The translations under genes were made by a program, and so were the position numbers. A stretch of DNA of 5,806 bases. Source: an uncultured bacterium. Lineage in GTDB: Bacteria; Verrucomicrobiota; Kiritimatiellia; CAIKKV01. Location: contig CAIKKV010000572.1 in the NCBI GenBank assembly GCA_903828035.1, positions 1-5,806 on the forward strand. The letters run 5' to 3'. The notes beneath the pieces are model-generated. The model ran no database searches and was not told the DNA's origin. It saw only the letters and a list, made by a program, of their open reading frames with translations. This document shows positions 1-5,806 of this stretch, one piece after another. Every line of letters begins with the position of its first letter. Positions within the stretch are counted from its first letter, which is position 1.

Positions 1-477
1 GCGGCTAATCTCATTAACTTTCTCATGTCGTTCCTGGTCCTTCTTCTCTACCTGCTTGTCATGCACGCGCCCATCCAATGGGGGAGCCTGGTCTGGCTTC
101 CGCTCGTCATCCTGACCCAGACCGCCCTTTGCCTGGGTCTTTCGGCGCTGCTGTCCGCCGCCAACGTATTCTTCCGCGATGCCGAGCATCTTCTCGGCCA
201 CCTGGTGATGGCCTGGTTTTTCCTGACGCCCATCCTCTATCCGCTTTCCCTGCCTCTGACGGTCATTCACAACAAGCTTCCCGCTTTTTGCGAGACGCTT
301 TACTTCTGCAATCCCATGACCGGCCTGATCATGTCCTACCGCCGCATCCTGCTGGGCACGCCGCCCGAAGTCAGCCTCTGGCTGCCGGCCCTGTCGTTTG
401 CCGTCTGCTGGCTGATTCTCCTGGCCGGCGTCGGCCTTTTCCAAAAGGTGCAGGGTCGTTTTGGAGACGAGTTGTAA
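1..477 (+). CDS. wzm: O-antigen/polysaccharide ABC-2 type permease, 5'-truncated
   Basis: This is the membrane subunit of an ABC exporter that moves finished, lipid-linked polysaccharide (O-antigen or similar) across the inner membrane. The frame is open from base 1 to the TAA at 475-477, giving 158 residues. The family is usually about 260-270 residues, so roughly the first 100 lie outside the window; the ATG at base 25 is internal, not the start. Hydrophobic helices lie at about residues 4-21, 30-51, 64-82 and 130-150. The family motif NVFFRD (55-60) followed by WFFLTPILYP (72-81) is characteristic of Wzm/TagG-type ABC-2 permeases. The gene ends 2 nt before a Wzt-type ATPase, its obligate partner. 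Teichoic-acid TagG is the main alternative, but the Wzt-like C-terminal domain on the partner favours a Gram-negative O-antigen system. The family call is secure; the exact substrate is unknown. Confidence 0.9.
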   Translation, partial: AANLINFLMSFLVLLLYLLVMHAPIQWGSLVWLPLVILTQTALCLGLSALLSAANVFFRDAEHLLGHLVMAWFFLTPILYPLSLPLTVIHNKLPAFCETLYFCNPMTGLIMSYRRILLGTPPEVSLWLPALSFAVCWLILLAGVGLFQKVQGRFGDEL

Positions 478-479
478 CC

Positions 480-1661
480 ATGAAGCCAACCGTCATCGAT
501 GTCCAGGATGTCAGCAAGAAGTTTCTCCTCCAGAGAAGCGGCTCACGCACCCTGAAAGCCGCCATGCTGGATATCTTCCGCCGGACGCCCCTCCGCGAGT
601 TCTGGGCGCTGCGGGACGTGAACTTTTCCGTCGGCCGGGGCGAAACGCTCGGCATCATTGGGGCCAATGGCGCCGGCAAAAGCACGCTGCTGTCCCTCCT
701 CGCGGGAACGCTTTCGCCCACCACGGGCTCCATCACCGCCAATGGCCGCATCTCGTCTCTTCTTGAGTTGGGCGCCGGCTTCCATCCGGAGTTGACCGGC
801 CGCGAAAATGTCTTCCTCTGGGGCTCGATCATGGGGCTTTCCAAGAGCCGCATGAGGGAGCGCTTTGATCGCATCGTGGAGTTCGCGGAGCTGCGAGAAT
901 ATATCGATCAGCCCGTCAAGCATTACTCCTCCGGCATGTATGTCCGCCTCGGCTTTGCCGTCGCCGTGGAGGTCGATCCCGACATCCTGCTGGTCGATGA
1001 AGTGCTGGCGGTGGGCGATCTGACCTTCCAGCAGAAATGCCTCGAGCGCATGGACGATTTCCGCAAGCGCGGAAAGACCATGCTGATTGTCTCGCACGAC
1101 ATGCGGACCATCCAGGCCATCAGCAACCGGATTCTTTTCCTCAGCGCCGGGCGCGTGCTGGGCGACGGCACCCCCGATTCCATCGTTAGCCAATATGAAT
1201 CCAACCAGCGTCAGCAGCACGCCGATATCCTGAAGCGGGAGTGGGGCACCCGTGAAGCCGTCATCACGGGCGTGACCCTCACGGGCCAGGATGACAAACC
1301 CCGCCGGGAATACAGCTGGAACGAGCCCATCCGGATCACCATTTCCTACCAGGCGTCCGCGCGAATCGCGGATCCCGTTTTCGGGTTCGCCGTCTCCTCG
1401 GCCTCCGGTCAGCGGCTTTACGGAAACAACACCCAGATCGAGAAGCTGTCCATTCCCTTCATCGAAGGGGAGGGGAGCATCCGCCTGACGCTGCCCCGGC
1501 TGCCCGTGGCCACCGGCGCCTGCCTGTTCTCGTTCTCCATCCACTCGTCCGACCACAAAACCCATTTCCACCGCCTCGACAACGCCTTCCCGATTCAAGT
1601 CGAATCGCCGCTTCCCTTCGAAGGCGTCTACCTGCCCATCCACTGGGAGATTCTGCCATGA
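480..1661 (+). CDS. wzt: Polysaccharide ABC exporter ATP-binding protein with C-terminal glycan-recognition domain (Wzt)
   Basis: This cytoplasmic ATPase powers polysaccharide export with the upstream permease. It has 393 residues. The nucleotide-binding domain covers about 5-240: Walker A GANGAGKST (61-69), LELGAGFHPELTGREN (95-110) typical of this subfamily, signature YSSGMYVRLGF (149-159), Walker B ILLVDE (169-174) and switch histidine H206 in SHD. Residues about 255-393 form a beta-rich extension matching the Wzt C-terminal domain, which in characterised homologues binds the modified end of the O-antigen chain and gives substrate specificity; this glycan role here is inferred. The frame is open upstream to base 78, but ATG 480 is chosen because it lies 2 nt after the permease stop and gives the normal N-terminus before the first beta strand. 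A GGAG at 463-466 is 13 nt away, a weak ribosome site, so coupling to the permease is likely. The gene overlaps nadC by 4 nt. Confidence 0.93.
   Translation: MKPTVIDVQDVSKKFLLQRSGSRTLKAAMLDIFRRTPLREFWALRDVNFSVGRGETLGIIGANGAGKSTLLSLLAGTLSPTTGSITANGRISSLLELGAGFHPELTGRENVFLWGSIMGLSKSRMRERFDRIVEFAELREYIDQPVKHYSSGMYVRLGFAVAVEVDPDILLVDEVLAVGDLTFQQKCLERMDDFRKRGKTMLIVSHDMRTIQAISNRILFLSAGRVLGDGTPDSIVSQYESNQRQQHADILKREWGTREAVITGVTLTGQDDKPRREYSWNEPIRITISYQASARIADPVFGFAVSSASGQRLYGNNTQIEKLSIPFIEGEGSIRLTLPRLPVATGACLFSFSIHSSDHKTHFHRLDNAFPIQVESPLPFEGVYLPIHWEILP
1658..1661 (+). promoter_or_regulatory. ATGA stop-start overlap coupling wzt to nadC
   Basis: The wzt stop TGA (1659-1661) and the nadC start ATG (1658-1660) share bases. 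A GGGAG at 1645-1649 within the end of wzt serves nadC. This arrangement normally means translational coupling through termination-reinitiation, tying a cofactor gene to a polysaccharide-export gene. Confidence 0.85.
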
Positions 1662-2527
1662 CCCCGTCTCTGCCCGATCTTGCCAACGACCCCTATGTCC
1701 GCACCGTCATCCGGCGGGCGCTGCGCGAGGATATCGGCAATGGCGATGCCACCACCCGCGCGCTCGTGCCGCTGCGGCTGAAGGCCTCCGCCGAAATCCT
1801 CGCCCGCACGGCCTGTCGCGTGGCCGGCGGAACCATCGCCGCCGCCATTTTCCGCGAACTCGATCCCGGCATCCAATGCGATATCGGCGTGCCGGATGGA
1901 GCGGATGCCAAAGCCGATGACGTGCTGCTCACCCTTCGCGGGAACGCCGGAAAACTGCTCACGGCCGAGCGGACCGCCCTTAATTTCATGCAGCGCATGA
2001 CCGGCATCGCCTCGCTGACGGCCCGGTTCGTCGACCAGGTCAAAGCCTATCCCGTGAAGATCCTGGACACCCGGAAAACCACGCCCACGCTCCGGTTGTT
2101 CGAGAAATACGCGGTCCTGTGCGGCGGCGGAACGAATCACCGCATGGGCCTCTTCGACATGGTCCTGCTCAAGGATAACCACCGCTTCCTGTGGCGCCAG
2201 GGCGGAACCCCCGACCTGGCCGCCGCCATCCGCCGCGTGCGCTTGACCCACCCCGACTTGCCGATTGAAGTCGAAGTGGAAACGCAGGCCGATCTTCTGG
2301 CCGTGCTTCCTGAAAAGCCGGATTGGATCATGCTGGATAATATGAGTCTGGACGACATGCGCGCCTGCGTGAAGCTTGGCAAGGGCGCCGTCCAGCTCGA
2401 AGCCTCCGGCGGCGTCTCGCTGGAGCGCGTTGCCGCCATCGCGGCAACCGGGGTGGATGCCATTTCCATCGGCGCCCTGACCCATTCAGCGCCCGCGGCC
2501 GATTTGTCCCTGGAGCTCTCGGCTTGA
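1658..2527 (+). CDS. nadC: Nicotinate-nucleotide pyrophosphorylase (quinolinate phosphoribosyltransferase, decarboxylating)
   Basis: NadC converts quinolinate and PRPP to nicotinate mononucleotide, CO2 and pyrophosphate, the entry to NAD from the de novo pathway, in the cytosol. The 289-residue length is normal. The N-terminal domain carries REDIGNGDATT (23-33). The barrel carries ERTALNFMQRMTGIASLT (104-121), the PRPP/quinolinate site ILDTRKTTP (135-143), GGGTNHRMGL (156-165), KDNH (172-175), EVE (204-206), MLDN (225-228), EASGG (248-252) and SIGALTHSA (270-278). All catalytic positions I can recognise are present. The start ATG lies inside the wzt stop (ATGA, 1658-1661), with GGGAG at 1645-1649 placed 8 nt upstream. 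No nadA or nadB is in the window. The gene is translationally coupled on both sides, to wzt and coaX. The assignment is secure. Confidence 0.97.
   Translation: MTPSLPDLANDPYVRTVIRRALREDIGNGDATTRALVPLRLKASAEILARTACRVAGGTIAAAIFRELDPGIQCDIGVPDGADAKADDVLLTLRGNAGKLLTAERTALNFMQRMTGIASLTARFVDQVKAYPVKILDTRKTTPTLRLFEKYAVLCGGGTNHRMGLFDMVLLKDNHRFLWRQGGTPDLAAAIRRVRLTHPDLPIEVEVETQADLLAVLPEKPDWIMLDNMSLDDMRACVKLGKGAVQLEASGGVSLERVAAIAATGVDAISIGALTHSAPAADLSLELSA
2524..2527 (+). promoter_or_regulatory. TTGA stop-start overlap coupling nadC to coaX
   Basis: The nadC stop TGA (2525-2527) overlaps a TTG start for coaX (2524-2526). GGAG at 2512-2515 lies 8 nt before it. No ATG or GTG occurs in the coaX frame before its essential phosphate loop, which supports TTG. 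The weak start codon may keep CoaX output below that of NadC. Confidence 0.75.
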
Positions 2528-3303
2528 GCGCAACACGGCCCAGGCTGCGGCTGGCGCTGGTTGATGCCGGCAACACCACCTCATCCCTGGCTGTGGCGGA
2601 AGGCCTCCGGATACGCCGGTCCGGCGTCCTGCTGACGGGCGAGGTCACGTTCGCCAGCGCCTCGTCGTTGCTGAAGAAAGCCGCTAACGGCAACCCCTTG
2701 GATGGCGCCGTTCTCTGCTCTGTCGTGCCGGCGGTGAACGCCCTCTGGCTGAAGGCGCTTGCCGCCGTCAGCCGAACACGACCCCTGCTGATAACCCATC
2801 AGTTGGACTTCGGCATTGCCATCCGGTATGCCCATCCCGAGACGATCGGCGCCGACCGCCTGGTCAATGCCGCGGCCGCGGCGGCGCGCTTCGGATCGCC
2901 GGTTGTGGCGCTCGATTTCGGCACAGCTTTGACCTGCGATGTGGTTTCGCGCGACGGCGCCTTTGTCGGCGGAATCATTGCCCCCGGCATGCGCCTGTTG
3001 CTGGATTACCTGCATGAGCGCACCGCCCTGCTTCCCGAGGTCGCCTTCGGGGCGATTCAGAGGATGGTCGGACGAAACACGCAGGAAGCCATGCGAATCG
3101 GGGCCTGGGCCGGCTACCGCGGCCTGGTGCGCGAACTGATGTCGGGCTTGCGGCGCGACCTCGGACGGGGAGCCCGCTTCTGCGCCACTGGCGGAGATTC
3201 GCTCAGGCTTAAAACCATTCTCGGGCCGGCCTGTCCGGTTATTCCGGATCTGACGTTCGACGGCATGCGACTGGTATTCACGCGCAACACACCGGACGGG
3301 TGA
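2524..3303 (+). CDS. coaX: Type III pantothenate kinase
   Basis: CoaX phosphorylates pantothenate, the first step of coenzyme A synthesis. It belongs to the ASKHA fold, uses ATP and often needs a monovalent cation. It has 259 residues, normal for the family. Visible motifs are the phosphate loop DAGNTT (14-19), the pantothenate/catalytic GADR (109-112, with D111 the expected base), DFGTALT (131-137), GGIIAPG (149-155), the HERTALLP dimer-contact region (164-171), GRNTQEAM (183-190) and ATGGDS (221-226). The start is TTG at 2524: the reading frame has no ATG or GTG between there and the D14 loop, and GGAG at 2512-2515 sits 8 nt upstream. The TTG overlaps the nadC stop as TTGA. Type III enzymes resist feedback by CoA in studied cases. 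The frequent nadC-birA-coaX neighbour birA is absent. The call is secure; only the start codon is slightly uncertain. Confidence 0.95.
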   Translation: MSATRPRLRLALVDAGNTTSSLAVAEGLRIRRSGVLLTGEVTFASASSLLKKAANGNPLDGAVLCSVVPAVNALWLKALAAVSRTRPLLITHQLDFGIAIRYAHPETIGADRLVNAAAAAARFGSPVVALDFGTALTCDVVSRDGAFVGGIIAPGMRLLLDYLHERTALLPEVAFGAIQRMVGRNTQEAMRIGAWAGYRGLVRELMSGLRRDLGRGARFCATGGDSLRLKTILGPACPVIPDLTFDGMRLVFTRNTPDG

Positions 3304-3308
3304 GTGGC

Positions 3309-3314
3309 GGAGGG
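3309..3314 (+). promoter_or_regulatory. Shine-Dalgarno site of the PHP-Cache-PAS-DUF294 gene
   Basis: GGAGGG ends 5 nt before the ATG at 3320, inside the only real intergenic gap (3304-3319, 16 nt). It is the strongest ribosome site in the window and fixes the start of the fifth gene, so this gene probably initiates independently of coaX although it shares the transcript. The gap is too short for a terminator and no promoter is visible in it. Confidence 0.8.
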
Positions 3315-3319
3315 TGGAC

Positions 3320-5806
3320 ATGCAGGAGTTCATAAAAGTCGATTTTCACAGCCATTCAGCCTTCAGCGATGGCGGGTGGAGGCCTGAGCAAATTGCCCAG
3401 GCCTGCGCGGAACAGGGCGTTCGCTATGCAGCCTTGACGGATCACTGCACCCTGGAGGGGCTGGACCGGTTTGAAGCCGCCTGTGCCAGGCTTGGCGTAG
3501 GTTTTTTGAACGGCCTTGAACTGACCGCTTTCTATGACAAGAAGGAGATTCATCTGCTCTGTTACGGTTTTGACCGGACGCATATCGCGTTGATCCGCAT
3601 GGTGAAGGCAGTCCGGGAGAGCCTTGTTCTGAAAAGTGCGCCCTTTGCGCTGTTTGAGAAAAAAAGCCTTCTGGCCTTGATCAAGACGGTCCATCAGGCG
3701 GGGGGGGTCGTTCTTCTGGCGCACCCGCTCGCCACGGAGAGCGACTTCGGCAGAATGGAAAGCCTTGTGGCGGAGTTGGCACGTGCCGGATTGGACGGCA
3801 TTGAGGTGGATCACCCCACGGCCAGCGATGCCCAGCGGACGCGGTTGCGCGAATACGCCACCCGCCTGGACCTCGTTGTTTCGGGCGGGTCCGACCATCA
3901 TGGACGCGCCGACGAGAAAGCCGCTGCGCTCGGGGTTGAGCTTCCCGCAAGGGACTGGATGGCCTTGCGCGACCGGCTCGTCTCGCAACGGAAACAGGCG
4001 CAACGGGATGACGAATCGACTGCTCCGCATTCCGGACTCGAATCCCCGGGCGAAAAAAAGACCGGACGGATGCGCCTGCTGGCTTCGATGGCCTTGCCGG
4101 CCATATCCGTGGTGGTTCTCTTTACGCTGGCCTTATTCGGCTATTTTCTGCCCGGATACGAGAATACCCTGATGGAGCGAAAGAGGGAGATGATCCGGGA
4201 GCTGACCCGTACGGTATGGAGTTTGCTCGACGAAGCCGACAAAAATGTGCAGGCGGGGCGGGTTTCGCCCGAAGACGCGCGAAGTCAGGTCATTGATCGC
4301 GTCCGGGCATTGCGCTATGGCCGCGAGGGGAAAGATTATTTCTGGTTGCAGGATCTGACTCCACGGATGCTGATGCATCCCTATCGCCGTGATCTGGAGG
4401 GGCAGAACTTGTCCGATTTCAAGGATCCGCGCGGCGTTCATATTTTCACGGTATTTGCCGACAAAGTCCGTCAGGATCGCGAAGGATATGTGGGCTATGT
4501 CTGGCAGTGGAAAGACGATCCCGCCCGATTGGAAGCCAAAGAGTCCTACATCCGCCTCTTCGAACCCTGGGGATGGGTGATTGGGACCGGGTTGTATATC
4601 CATGACGTGGTGGCGGAAATACACCTTTTGAAGCTCAGGCTGTTCTATGTCATGGGGAGCGTCATCGCGGTCTTGATTCTTCTCCTGCTCATCATGTTGA
4701 GGGGGGGCATGCGGGCGGACCGATTGAGGGCTGCCGCCGAGATGCGTCTTCAGGAGTCCAACGAGCGATACCTCTCGCTTGTCCGCGCGTCTGCTGAGGG
4801 CGTTCTGTTTGTTCGCAATCTCCGATGCGTCTACGCCAATCCTGTTTTTCTCGAATTGGCAGGGTGTGAATCTTCCGAACTGCCGTTGCTCGACTGGCGG
4901 GAACTGTTCCCGGGCGTCTTGGAGCTAGACCCCTTTTTCAGGGATACCGGCGCCGATCTGTACTGGGATGCGTTGCTTCGGAGGAGAGACGGAAGCGCGT
5001 TGAAATGCCGGATCGCGCGAAAGGTGATGTCGGAAAACGGCCTGGGCGGATTCGTGGCGTTGGTCCGGCGGCCTGAAGAAACAGGCACCCGGACGGCCGG
5101 CATGGCGGATGGACTGTTGAAGCGGCTGTTGAACGTGCCCTCCACGGCCGCGGAGGATATCGCGCGTGAGATCGCCTTGGCAGAGACGCGCGAGCACGTT
5201 GTCGGACTCTGCCGACGAGTGCCTGAACTGGTGGGCTCCATGCTTGAAAGCGGCGCTTCACCCGCCTCCATCGCAGGCATGATCTCTTCCATTACGGATT
5301 CGGCCACCAGCCGGTTCATTGAGATGGCGCAGGCGGATTTGGGTTCGCCGCCGGTCGACTATGCGTTTGTCGCGCTAGGCAGTCAAGGCCGCAAGGAGCA
5401 GACCCTGTTCACGGATCAGGACAACGCCATTATTTATGAGGCCCCTAAAAACGGGTCGGATGAACGAGTTGAACGTTACTTCTCCGCCTTGGCGGCGAGC
5501 GTCTGCGAATCCATGACCTGTTCAGGATACAGGAATTGCAAGGGGTTGGTGATGGCCAGTAATCCCAAATGGTGTCAGCCCCTGTATGTCTGGAAAGGCT
5601 ATTTCACAACCTGGATAGCCAAGGCGGAAGCGCAGGACATGATGGAGTTTGGCGCCTTTTTCGATTTGAGGTGCGTGAAAGGCGAACGAGGCTTGGTCCA
5701 GGCCCTCCGTACGCATATCCAGTCCGAATTATCTCGTTCGCCTTTGTTTTACACCCACGCCGCCCGGACCGCCCTTCTTTTCAAGAGCCCTCTCCGTCTC
5801 TTCGGA
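3320..5806 (+). CDS. PHP phosphoesterase - sCache sensor - PAS - DUF294 nucleotidyltransferase membrane fusion protein, 3'-truncated
   Basis: One frame stays open for 829 codons to the right edge. PHP domain (about 1-215): the expected metal ligands are all present, H10 and H12 (DFHSH), D17, H42 (TDH), E67 (GLE), H78, H135 (AHP), D192 and H194 (SDHHG). A polar linker (216-250) leads to TM helix 253-276. A periplasmic sCache_2 domain (about 277-435) follows, with DYFWLQD (339-345), a downstream MHP, and PWGWVIGTGLYIHDV ending at V430; then TM helix 441-460. A PAS domain spans about 481-585. A helical stretch leads to the DUF294 nucleotidyltransferase signature GSQGRKE (687-693) and TDQDNA (698-703), then the DUF294_C motifs GYRNCKG (736-742), SNPKWC (747-752) and FDLR (781-784). 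Arginine- and lysine-rich flanks (KKTGRMR, RGGMRADR) put both ends in the cytosol. I infer a ligand-gated nucleotidyltransferase/phosphoesterase; the substrate is unknown. ATG 3320 has a strong ribosome site. GC content looks lower than upstream. Confidence 0.9.
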   Translation, partial: MQEFIKVDFHSHSAFSDGGWRPEQIAQACAEQGVRYAALTDHCTLEGLDRFEAACARLGVGFLNGLELTAFYDKKEIHLLCYGFDRTHIALIRMVKAVRESLVLKSAPFALFEKKSLLALIKTVHQAGGVVLLAHPLATESDFGRMESLVAELARAGLDGIEVDHPTASDAQRTRLREYATRLDLVVSGGSDHHGRADEKAAALGVELPARDWMALRDRLVSQRKQAQRDDESTAPHSGLESPGEKKTGRMRLLASMALPAISVVVLFTLALFGYFLPGYENTLMERKREMIRELTRTVWSLLDEADKNVQAGRVSPEDARSQVIDRVRALRYGREGKDYFWLQDLTPRMLMHPYRRDLEGQNLSDFKDPRGVHIFTVFADKVRQDREGYVGYVWQWKDDPARLEAKESYIRLFEPWGWVIGTGLYIHDVVAEIHLLKLRLFYVMGSVIAVLILLLLIMLRGGMRADRLRAAAEMRLQESNERYLSLVRASAEGVLFVRNLRCVYANPVFLELAGCESSELPLLDWRELFPGVLELDPFFRDTGADLYWDALLRRRDGSALKCRIARKVMSENGLGGFVALVRRPEETGTRTAGMADGLLKRLLNVPSTAAEDIAREIALAETREHVVGLCRRVPELVGSMLESGASPASIAGMISSITDSATSRFIEMAQADLGSPPVDYAFVALGSQGRKEQTLFTDQDNAIIYEAPKNGSDERVERYFSALAASVCESMTCSGYRNCKGLVMASNPKWCQPLYVWKGYFTTWIAKAEAQDMMEFGAFFDLRCVKGERGLVQALRTHIQSELSRSPLFYTHAARTALLFKSPLRLFG
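3659..3665 (+). repeat. A7 homopolymer inside the PHP domain
   Basis: Seven A bases encode K114, K115 and the first base of S116. The phase does not match a canonical A-AAA-AAG slippery heptamer. It is one of four homopolymers of seven or more bases in this gene. Confidence 0.85.
3700..3707 (+). repeat. G8 homopolymer inside the PHP domain
   Basis: Eight consecutive G bases encode parts of residues 127-129 (AGG), just before the AHP metal-ligand motif at 134-136. The frame is open through it, so the assembled allele is in the on phase. A run of this length is a potential slippage site, and gain or loss of one base would abolish the downstream sensor and transferase. Confidence 0.9.
4053..4059 (+). 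repeat. A7 tract forming an in-phase A-AAA-AAG heptamer at the PHP-membrane junction
   Basis: Codons GAA-AAA-AAG encode E245, K246 and K247 in the linker just before transmembrane helix one. The phase is exactly that of the bacterial minus-one slippery heptamer known from dnaX. A minus-one shift here would add 78 codons and stop at 4294-4296, giving a soluble PHP protein of about 325 residues. I see no close downstream stem or upstream Shine-Dalgarno-like stimulator, so a working frameshift is only a possibility. Confidence 0.5.
4701..4707 (+). repeat. G7 homopolymer after the second transmembrane helix
   Basis: Seven G bases within the AGG-GGG-GGC codons encode R461, G462 and G463, immediately after transmembrane helix two and at the start of the cytoplasmic signalling helix. 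The frame continues unbroken on both sides. Confidence 0.9.

Follow-up and report, generated by a model that had tools for sequence, protein, structure and literature searches.

What does a membrane receptor do that carries a phosphoesterase-like domain at one end and a nucleotidyltransferase (NTase) at the other? The question is raised by a gene at the end of a 5,806 nt stretch of DNA (contig CAIKKV010000572.1, assembly GCA_903828035.1; the whole stretch is called the window) from an uncultured bacterium of the Kiritimatiellia. The gene encodes, on a single chain, a PHP domain, an sCache_2 domain set between two transmembrane (TM) segments, a PAS domain, and the DUF294 and DUF294_C domains. 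DUF294 enzymes themselves are known; what is new is a membrane-bound form of this signalling enzyme fused to a phosphoesterase. Anatomy, conservation, ligand-pocket identity, predicted fold class and gene neighbourhood are matters of observation, and the whole has the look of a hitherto undescribed kind of on/off switch for acetate use. The explanation favoured here, though with slightly more doubt than belief, is that of a membrane receptor for external C2/C3 monocarboxylates, which would control a partner of acetate uptake by GlnD-like reversible nucleotidylation.

Architecture and recurrence of the receptor chain

The frame is open from ATG 3320 to 5806 without any stop, and 829 codons fall inside the window; GTG 3314 is a possible alternative start, and the GGAGGG stretch at 3309-3314 suits ATG 3320. 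The gene runs off the window, in which DUF294_C only begins (about 5744-5806). The missing C-terminus is provided by P0001, a near-identical protein of 959 residues encoded by a 10.9-kb contig, with 2 differences over the 829 shared residues. Pfam domains were called on full-length P0001, and all five exceed the gathering scores: PHP (residues 8-85; 47.7 bits, E 2.9e-12), sCache_2 (284-434; E 1.2e-32), PAS_8 (482-538; 24.7 bits vs. a cut-off of 21.8), DUF294 (PF03445, 632-770; 149.1 bits, E 9.5e-44) and DUF294_C (PF10335, 809-952; 118.3 bits, E 3.1e-34). Hydropathy places hydrophobic segments on both sides of Cache, at about residues 252-280 and 439-463. The domain order that the initial annotation had read in a single frame is thus confirmed by Pfam and hydropathy, DUF294_C being completed by P0001. 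The features are:

3309..3314, + strand: GGAGGG, likely ribosome-binding site, 5 nt ahead of ATG 3320 (read from the sequence)
3320..5806, + strand: receptor gene PHP-TM-sCache_2-TM-PAS-DUF294-DUF294_C, 829 of about 959 codons (open frame, P0001, Pfam)
3320..3994, + strand: PHP domain of the RNase AM/TrpH type without insertion domain (Pfam/NCBIfam, PDB matches, conservation)
4073..4159, + strand: TM segment 1, about residues 252-280 (hydropathy; helix 251-311 in the predicted model)
4169..4621, + strand: sCache_2 extracytoplasmic sensor domain
4337..4540, + strand: carboxylate pocket Y340, W342, H353, F376, Y393, W395, K407 (residue mapping and counts)
4634..4708, + strand: TM segment 2, about residues 439-463 (hydropathy; helix 427-492 in the predicted model)
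4790..5074, + strand: PAS domain (PAS_8; PAS fold match 491-585)
5108..5806, + strand: GlnE-like NTase unit, residues 597-950 at full length, ending here at the window edge
5378..5422, + strand: NTase motif GS...DxD (G687, S688, D699, D701; conservation)

Because two TM segments bracket the Cache domain, as is usual in receptors, both enzyme ends would lie in the cytoplasm and Cache outside. Charges weakly favour this orientation, the ratio of K/R to D/E being 4:2 and 5:4 in the inside flanks, 5:4 and 2:2 in the outside flanks.

The same architecture recurs widely. In a protein search the best 7999 candidates were scored, 890 homologues were found at E <= 0.001, and 120 of these were listed; a contig scan gave 469 relatives, the best 80 loci being retained, three of which yielded no scoring NTase open reading frame (ORF). 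PHP stands alongside Cache and DUF294 in 118 of the 120 listed homologues (precomputed Pfam column), and 96 align over 99-100% of the query. PHP, Cache and DUF294 share one frame in 68 of the best 80 loci, a few of these being cut by contig ends; the 68 come from 19 named phyla, 9 loci being unnamed, and phyla represented by a single locus rest on metagenome bins. Full-length homologues are therefore recurrent, and the domains are not always encoded by separate genes, the finding that would have spoken against a true fusion. An assembly chimera, or degeneration of the enzyme ends, has a negligible probability: most of the best 80 loci are labelled metagenome-assembled and three (L010, L070, L077) appear frame-broken, but the number of one-frame loci, their spread over phyla and the near-invariant motifs refute it by counts. 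A frame error near position 4050 is very unlikely on the same figures. The three loci just named were also candidates for a natural split into PHP and Cache-DUF294 genes; they look frame-broken in draft contigs, and were not used as evidence. The short form (<1100 residues) accounts for 97 of the listed proteins and a longer one for 23; in Pfam the long-form protein P0074 has an extra CBS pair and additional PAS matches. PHP was found on no DUF294 gene fetched from samples of phyla, and the PHP-fused form is sparse.

The PHP part matches 7ug9, 2yb1, 3e0f and 9etk in PDB, and presents the PHP barrel with the three-metal ligand set of RNase AM and of 3',5'-nucleoside bisphosphate phosphatase. 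At the metal-ligand positions H10, H12, D17, H42, E67, H78, H135, D192 and H194, 119-120 of the 120 listed homologues carry the same residue. Eight correspond to the ligands reported for RNase AM in the accessible text of PMC9410882 (His13, Asp20, His45, Glu72, His83, His198, Asp255, His257); the ninth, H12, would by our reading be RNase AM His15, having an equal offset. The barrel and the eight named ligands are thus shared with RNase AM and CV1693 (PHP, TrpH family). Unlike these, the receptor PHP is fused to a receptor, lacks the insertion domain (the H78-H135 spacing has a median of 57 residues vs. 115 in RNase AM), and has replaced Arg201, the residue contacting sulfate in RNase AM, a 5'-3' exoribonuclease (both from the same part of PMC9410882); at the corresponding position 138 the eight commonest residues, which cover 113 of the 120 listed homologues, do not include Arg. 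The top-scoring models, 3',5'-nucleoside bisphosphate phosphatase and RNase RNM, give 110.2 and 95.8 bits, and do not reach the equivalog cut-offs of 400 and 375 bits.

For the NTase unit a GlnE/GlnD-like transferase fold with a related helical domain was found; a sequence search of PDB gave no relative of this part, but the fold search did match. Its kin by fold and sequence are GlnE and DrrA, with a substrate domain of the HEPN clan. GlnE and DrrA adenylylate proteins. Residues G687, S688, D699 and D701 are each shared by 119-120 of the 120 listed homologues, and the PHP and NTase motif positions hold in 65-68 of the 68 one-frame loci, exceptions being gaps and single H78D, H194G and D701S rows; the motifs of both ends, noted as intact at the outset, are so in nearly all of these relatives. 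Neither HD nor ACT is among the seven Pfam families matched by P0001 at E <= 1, and the receptor is therefore not a GlnD; the claim is limited to GlnD-like working.

Ligand pocket and permease neighbours

The seven ligand contacts of PscD, as given in the accessible text of PMC5062169 (Y90, W92, H103, F126, Y143, W145, K156), map in this order onto the seven pocket residues of the receptor, and all are present in the 120 listed homologues; the position of PscD Met129 is Phe in 118. The MctS kinase model matches the Cache part with 66.8 bits. By residue correspondence, the pocket is that of the C2/C3 carboxylate sensors. The receptor shares fold and contacts with sCache_2 sensors of this kind (PscD, McpP, Adeh_3718, and also the MctS kinase), and differs in output, NTase and PHP taking the place of chemotaxis or histidine kinase output. 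The words PHP, DUF294 and nucleotidyltransferase do not occur in the main text of PMC4822843, which deals with Cache domains.

When four ORFs per side were clustered, a large protein recurred in 55 of the 78 loci and a small protein in 25. Five large neighbours tested have ActP, MctC or VC_2705-type symporters as best models, mostly under curated cut-offs; of the small neighbours two were tested and match DUF485, one of them coming from the phylum survey described below. In 48 of the 68 PHP loci a symporter lies no more than 300 nt from the receptor gene and in 6 at 300-3500 nt; none was found in the 371 kb lying between 3.5 and 8 kb of the 68 loci, a within-locus control. The receptor gene is tied to acetate-type symporters. 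DUF294 genes without Cache have a symporter within 3.5 kb in 21 of 83 cases. At two Cache loci without PHP, other than those with a calcineurin-type neighbour described below, a SatP/YaaH acetate permease resides within 570 nt, so that Cache-DUF294 loci carry permeases of two unrelated families, SSS and SatP. Nothing recognised as a carboxylate transporter was seen in the flanks of eight symporter-less PHP loci inspected.

Symporters at long-form loci (e.g. L017:5957-7894) feature about 115 extra residues between AASF-like and GTAxLPH-like motifs. Both motifs were located in 72 of 87 symporter ORFs; the median distance is 336 at long-form loci (range 220-339, 37 ORFs), 220 at short-form loci (202-335, 10 ORFs) and 202 where the DUF294 gene lacks Cache (186-335, 17 ORFs). 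Judged by loop charges the insert would be extracytoplasmic, and could touch the Cache domain. Other arrangements were observed. In L154 (1814-11209) the gene of a SatP-type acetate permease stands between two Cache-DUF294 genes that face each other, and symporter genes lie to one side; a short DnaQ-like ORF (10790-11209), recognised by eye only, was missed by the DnaQ profile. In L126 a separate small Cache-type ORF (8971-9540) is flanked by the genes of a SatP-type permease and a Cache-DUF294 protein. Genes resembling acyl-CoA/acetyl-CoA synthetases, again recognised by eye, are within 3.5 kb of 14 of the 83 DUF294 genes without Cache (e.g. L136), possibly another link to acetate.

Phosphoesterase partners of DUF294 genes

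DUF294 genes were surveyed in 455 genomes of several phyla, and 90 regions with strong matches were fetched, two of which repeat contigs of the best-80 set; short, fragmentary DUF294 matches (G018, G029) and weak GlnD/GlnE-like matches were left out. Contig-truncated (L013, L042) and frame-broken (L010, L070, L077) loci were dropped before counting pairs, and L206 and L207, on contigs shared with L065 and L073, do not enter the neighbourhood count. The resulting set holds 68 PHP-fused genes, 13 genes (at 12 loci) with Cache but no PHP, and 82 that lack Cache; the last group is labelled soluble by the sole criterion that Cache is absent.

Of the 82 soluble genes, 49 have a DnaQ-type exonuclease gene no more than 300 nt away, and 56 have one no more than 3.5 kb away; in 46 of the 49 close pairs it is directly downstream, on the same strand. 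These neighbours match the RNase_T exonuclease family. DnaQ catalytic residues are kept in 45-49 of the 49 ORFs of 140-420 residues (out of 55 DnaQ-profile ORFs), as counted on alignments; an initial motif expression matched 5 of the 55 and was judged too strict. A calcineurin-type phosphoesterase overlaps, or is at most 31 nt from, 5 of the 13 Cache genes without PHP (L058, L065, L075, L170, L177); the profile, built from three Pfam-checked neighbours, recovered the remaining two. In L075 this gene is itself made up by two overlapping ORFs. Neither partner adjoins any of the 68 PHP-fused genes, 52 of which are flanked on either side by no less than 1 kb. At one PHP-fused locus another ORF that matches PHP lies no more than 300 nt away.

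On a quick NTase tree PHP fusion requires 1 change (branch support 54), the calcineurin-type association 3, and the DnaQ association 13; when contig-truncated L013 and L042 are retained PHP needs 3 changes instead of 1. An independent-contrast test of Cache versus DnaQ offers one pair only. The strength of the pairing is that three unrelated kinds of phosphoesterase accompany the same transferase. Since DUF294 genes without PHP often adjoin a phosphoesterase, PHP and NTase may work against each other in a single switch. A footnote of PMC3412718 mentions an operon of DUF294 and dnaQ in Bacilli; this footnote excepted, no description of the pairing, or of the PHP-Cache-DUF294 architecture, was found in the papers covered, mostly open-licence ones and in part only, in keeping with the initial annotation, which had not recognised the architecture as described. 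PMC7698356, taken as a DUF294 paper, proved in its accessible text to deal with DUF2946.

Two Cache-DUF294 proteins without PHP (L142:4634-7243 and L147:4794-7403) are extended at the N-terminus by roughly 150 residues, a stretch in which L142 has no Pfam match (E <= 0.01). The extension occupies the place that PHP has in the fused proteins, and might serve as a further eraser or as a regulator.

Mechanism, alternatives and local context

The favoured explanation runs as follows. The receptor, probably a dimer, would sense external C2/C3 monocarboxylates, most likely acetate; binding at the extracytoplasmic Cache would be relayed via TM segment 2 and PAS to DUF294 and DUF294_C. This GlnE-like transferase would modify a protein engaged in acetate uptake with a nucleotide, probably AMP; the first candidate targets are the ActP/MctC-like sodium symporter encoded next to the receptor and the DUF485 subunit of that symporter. 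PHP on the same chain would remove the nucleotide by metal-dependent phosphodiester hydrolysis. Acetate outside would thus shift the balance between attachment and removal. The separate DnaQ-type exonuclease would be the remover in relatives without Cache, the separate calcineurin-type phosphoesterase in some Cache relatives without PHP. We infer dimerisation, catalysis, direction, nucleotide, target and the opposition of PHP to the transferase. The two outputs proposed in the initial annotation, nucleotidyl transfer and phosphoester hydrolysis, fit fold matches and conservation; as functions they are predicted, and the two enzymes may oppose each other.

The logic recalls GlnD, the PII uridylyltransferase/uridylyl-removing enzyme, in which a related transferase, a helical C-domain and a phosphodiesterase are on one chain. 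GlnD also senses on the same chain, by ACT domains. Matches to GlnD_UR_UTase and HD, and weak ones to DUF294, coexist in L109. Transferase, remover and sensor would likewise form one protein here, PHP replacing HD and Cache/PAS replacing ACT; GlnD differs in being soluble with HD as remover, the would-be remover of the receptor being an N-terminal PHP and its sensor a membrane Cache. GlnE (glutamine synthetase adenylyltransferase) is soluble, has two transferase units, and lacks PHP, Cache and PAS. The cNMP-CBS-DUF294 proteins (e.g. Pflu5625), presumably those labelled COG2905, share the DUF294 and DUF294_C unit (L081), an often adjoining DnaQ-type phosphoesterase, acetate genes nearby or co-regulated and, with long-form P0074, the CBS pair; unlike the receptor they have cNMP/CBS input and neither PHP nor Cache, and the phosphoesterase is a separate gene. 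To our knowledge no target or signal has been assigned to these proteins. The receptor offers a signal suggested by a fully conserved pocket (a C2/C3 carboxylate), a process that it probably serves (acetate uptake) and, on the same chain, a candidate enzyme for the opposite reaction, which makes the DUF294 question directly testable with one protein. According to the accessible text of PMC5715377, Pflu5625 belongs to the CrbS/R acetate regulon of P. fluorescens, as do ActP and Pflu1813, a DUF485 protein; an older prediction of protein nucleotidylation is repeated there.

It is rather unlikely that the NTase, triggered by acetate, makes a small nucleotide or short oligonucleotide acting as second messenger, to be degraded by PHP, DnaQ or the calcineurin-type enzyme. 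The pairing counts apply to this case as well, and the partners include nuclease types, as expected for a nucleic-acid-like substrate: the DnaQ-type neighbours belong with RNase_T exonucleases, and the nearest PHP by fold is the exoribonuclease RNase AM. GlnE and DrrA however modify proteins, a HEPN-clan substrate domain is present, and the receptor PHP has lost the insertion domain and the sulfate contact of RNase AM. That the sensor serves two parallel outputs, NTase modifying one partner and PHP hydrolysing another phosphoester (e.g. 5'-phosphate RNA, or a nucleoside bisphosphate), as the top PHP models would suggest, is improbable: the scores are far under the equivalog cut-offs, and the phosphoesterases adjoining DUF294 genes without PHP argue for a shared job.

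A doubtful but serious alternative, compatible with the others, is that the receptor controls expression or metabolism broadly, the symporter being co-regulated and not a target. Adjacency alone does not prove a target, 14 of the 68 PHP loci lack a symporter within 3.5 kb, and the link is looser for DUF294 genes without Cache; yet the spacing at PHP loci is very tight, with no symporter beyond 3.5 kb, and two unrelated permease families recur at Cache-DUF294 loci.

Several results weigh against reversible nucleotidylation of an uptake partner. Enzyme activity and target of the receptor are predictions; the predicted model has a predicted template modelling score (pTM) of 0.46, with no PHP-NTase contact predicted; the PHP domain, short of Arg201 and the insertion domain of RNase AM, has a putative substrate at most. 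Deletion of pflu5625 gave no phenotype, according to the accessible text of PMC5715377. Symporter scores for ActP and MctC are under curated cut-offs (e.g. 339.5 of 750, 452 of 670), making acetate a putative substrate, and the PHP loci without symporter are at contig ends in some cases, not in all. DnaQ is missing within 3.5 kb of 26 of the 82 genes without Cache, and an adjacent calcineurin-type gene is missing for 8 of the 13 Cache genes without PHP. The zeros for PHP-fused genes rest on fewer loci than 68, given the flanks available, and the Fisher values (1e-17, 5e-5) do not count as independent support and overstate the PHP contrast, because PHP fusion is one evolutionary event on the quick tree.

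Tentatively, the reading may be extended to an acetate-gated, GlnD-like receptor class acting on symporter/DUF485, DUF294 transferases generally pairing with unrelated erasers (PHP, DnaQ-type, calcineurin-type) and controlling bacterial acetate metabolism. If the receptor does work in this way, one-component membrane receptors gain reversible nucleotidylation as an output, and one more type of eraser stands beside GlnD's HD domain and GlnE's removing half.

A role in anti-phage defence was considered and dropped, P0001 and P0074 matching no family of the PADLOC models at E <= 0.001. Upstream of the receptor gene (1-3303) Wzm, Wzt, NadC and CoaX are encoded in a tight row, the last by

2524..3303, + strand: type III pantothenate kinase gene coaX (Pfam), 16 nt upstream of the receptor gene and not thought to be part of the system

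Relatives of nadC and coaX were detected at E <= 1e-8 in L001 only among the loci examined, and CoaX, NadC and Wzm-Wzt were hence rejected as functional partners and taken as local context. In L001 wzm, wzt, nadC and coaX are arranged upstream as in the window, with 73-77% identity, and a symporter is found 266 nt downstream; by analogy, a symporter is predicted just past position 5806 on the contig of the window.
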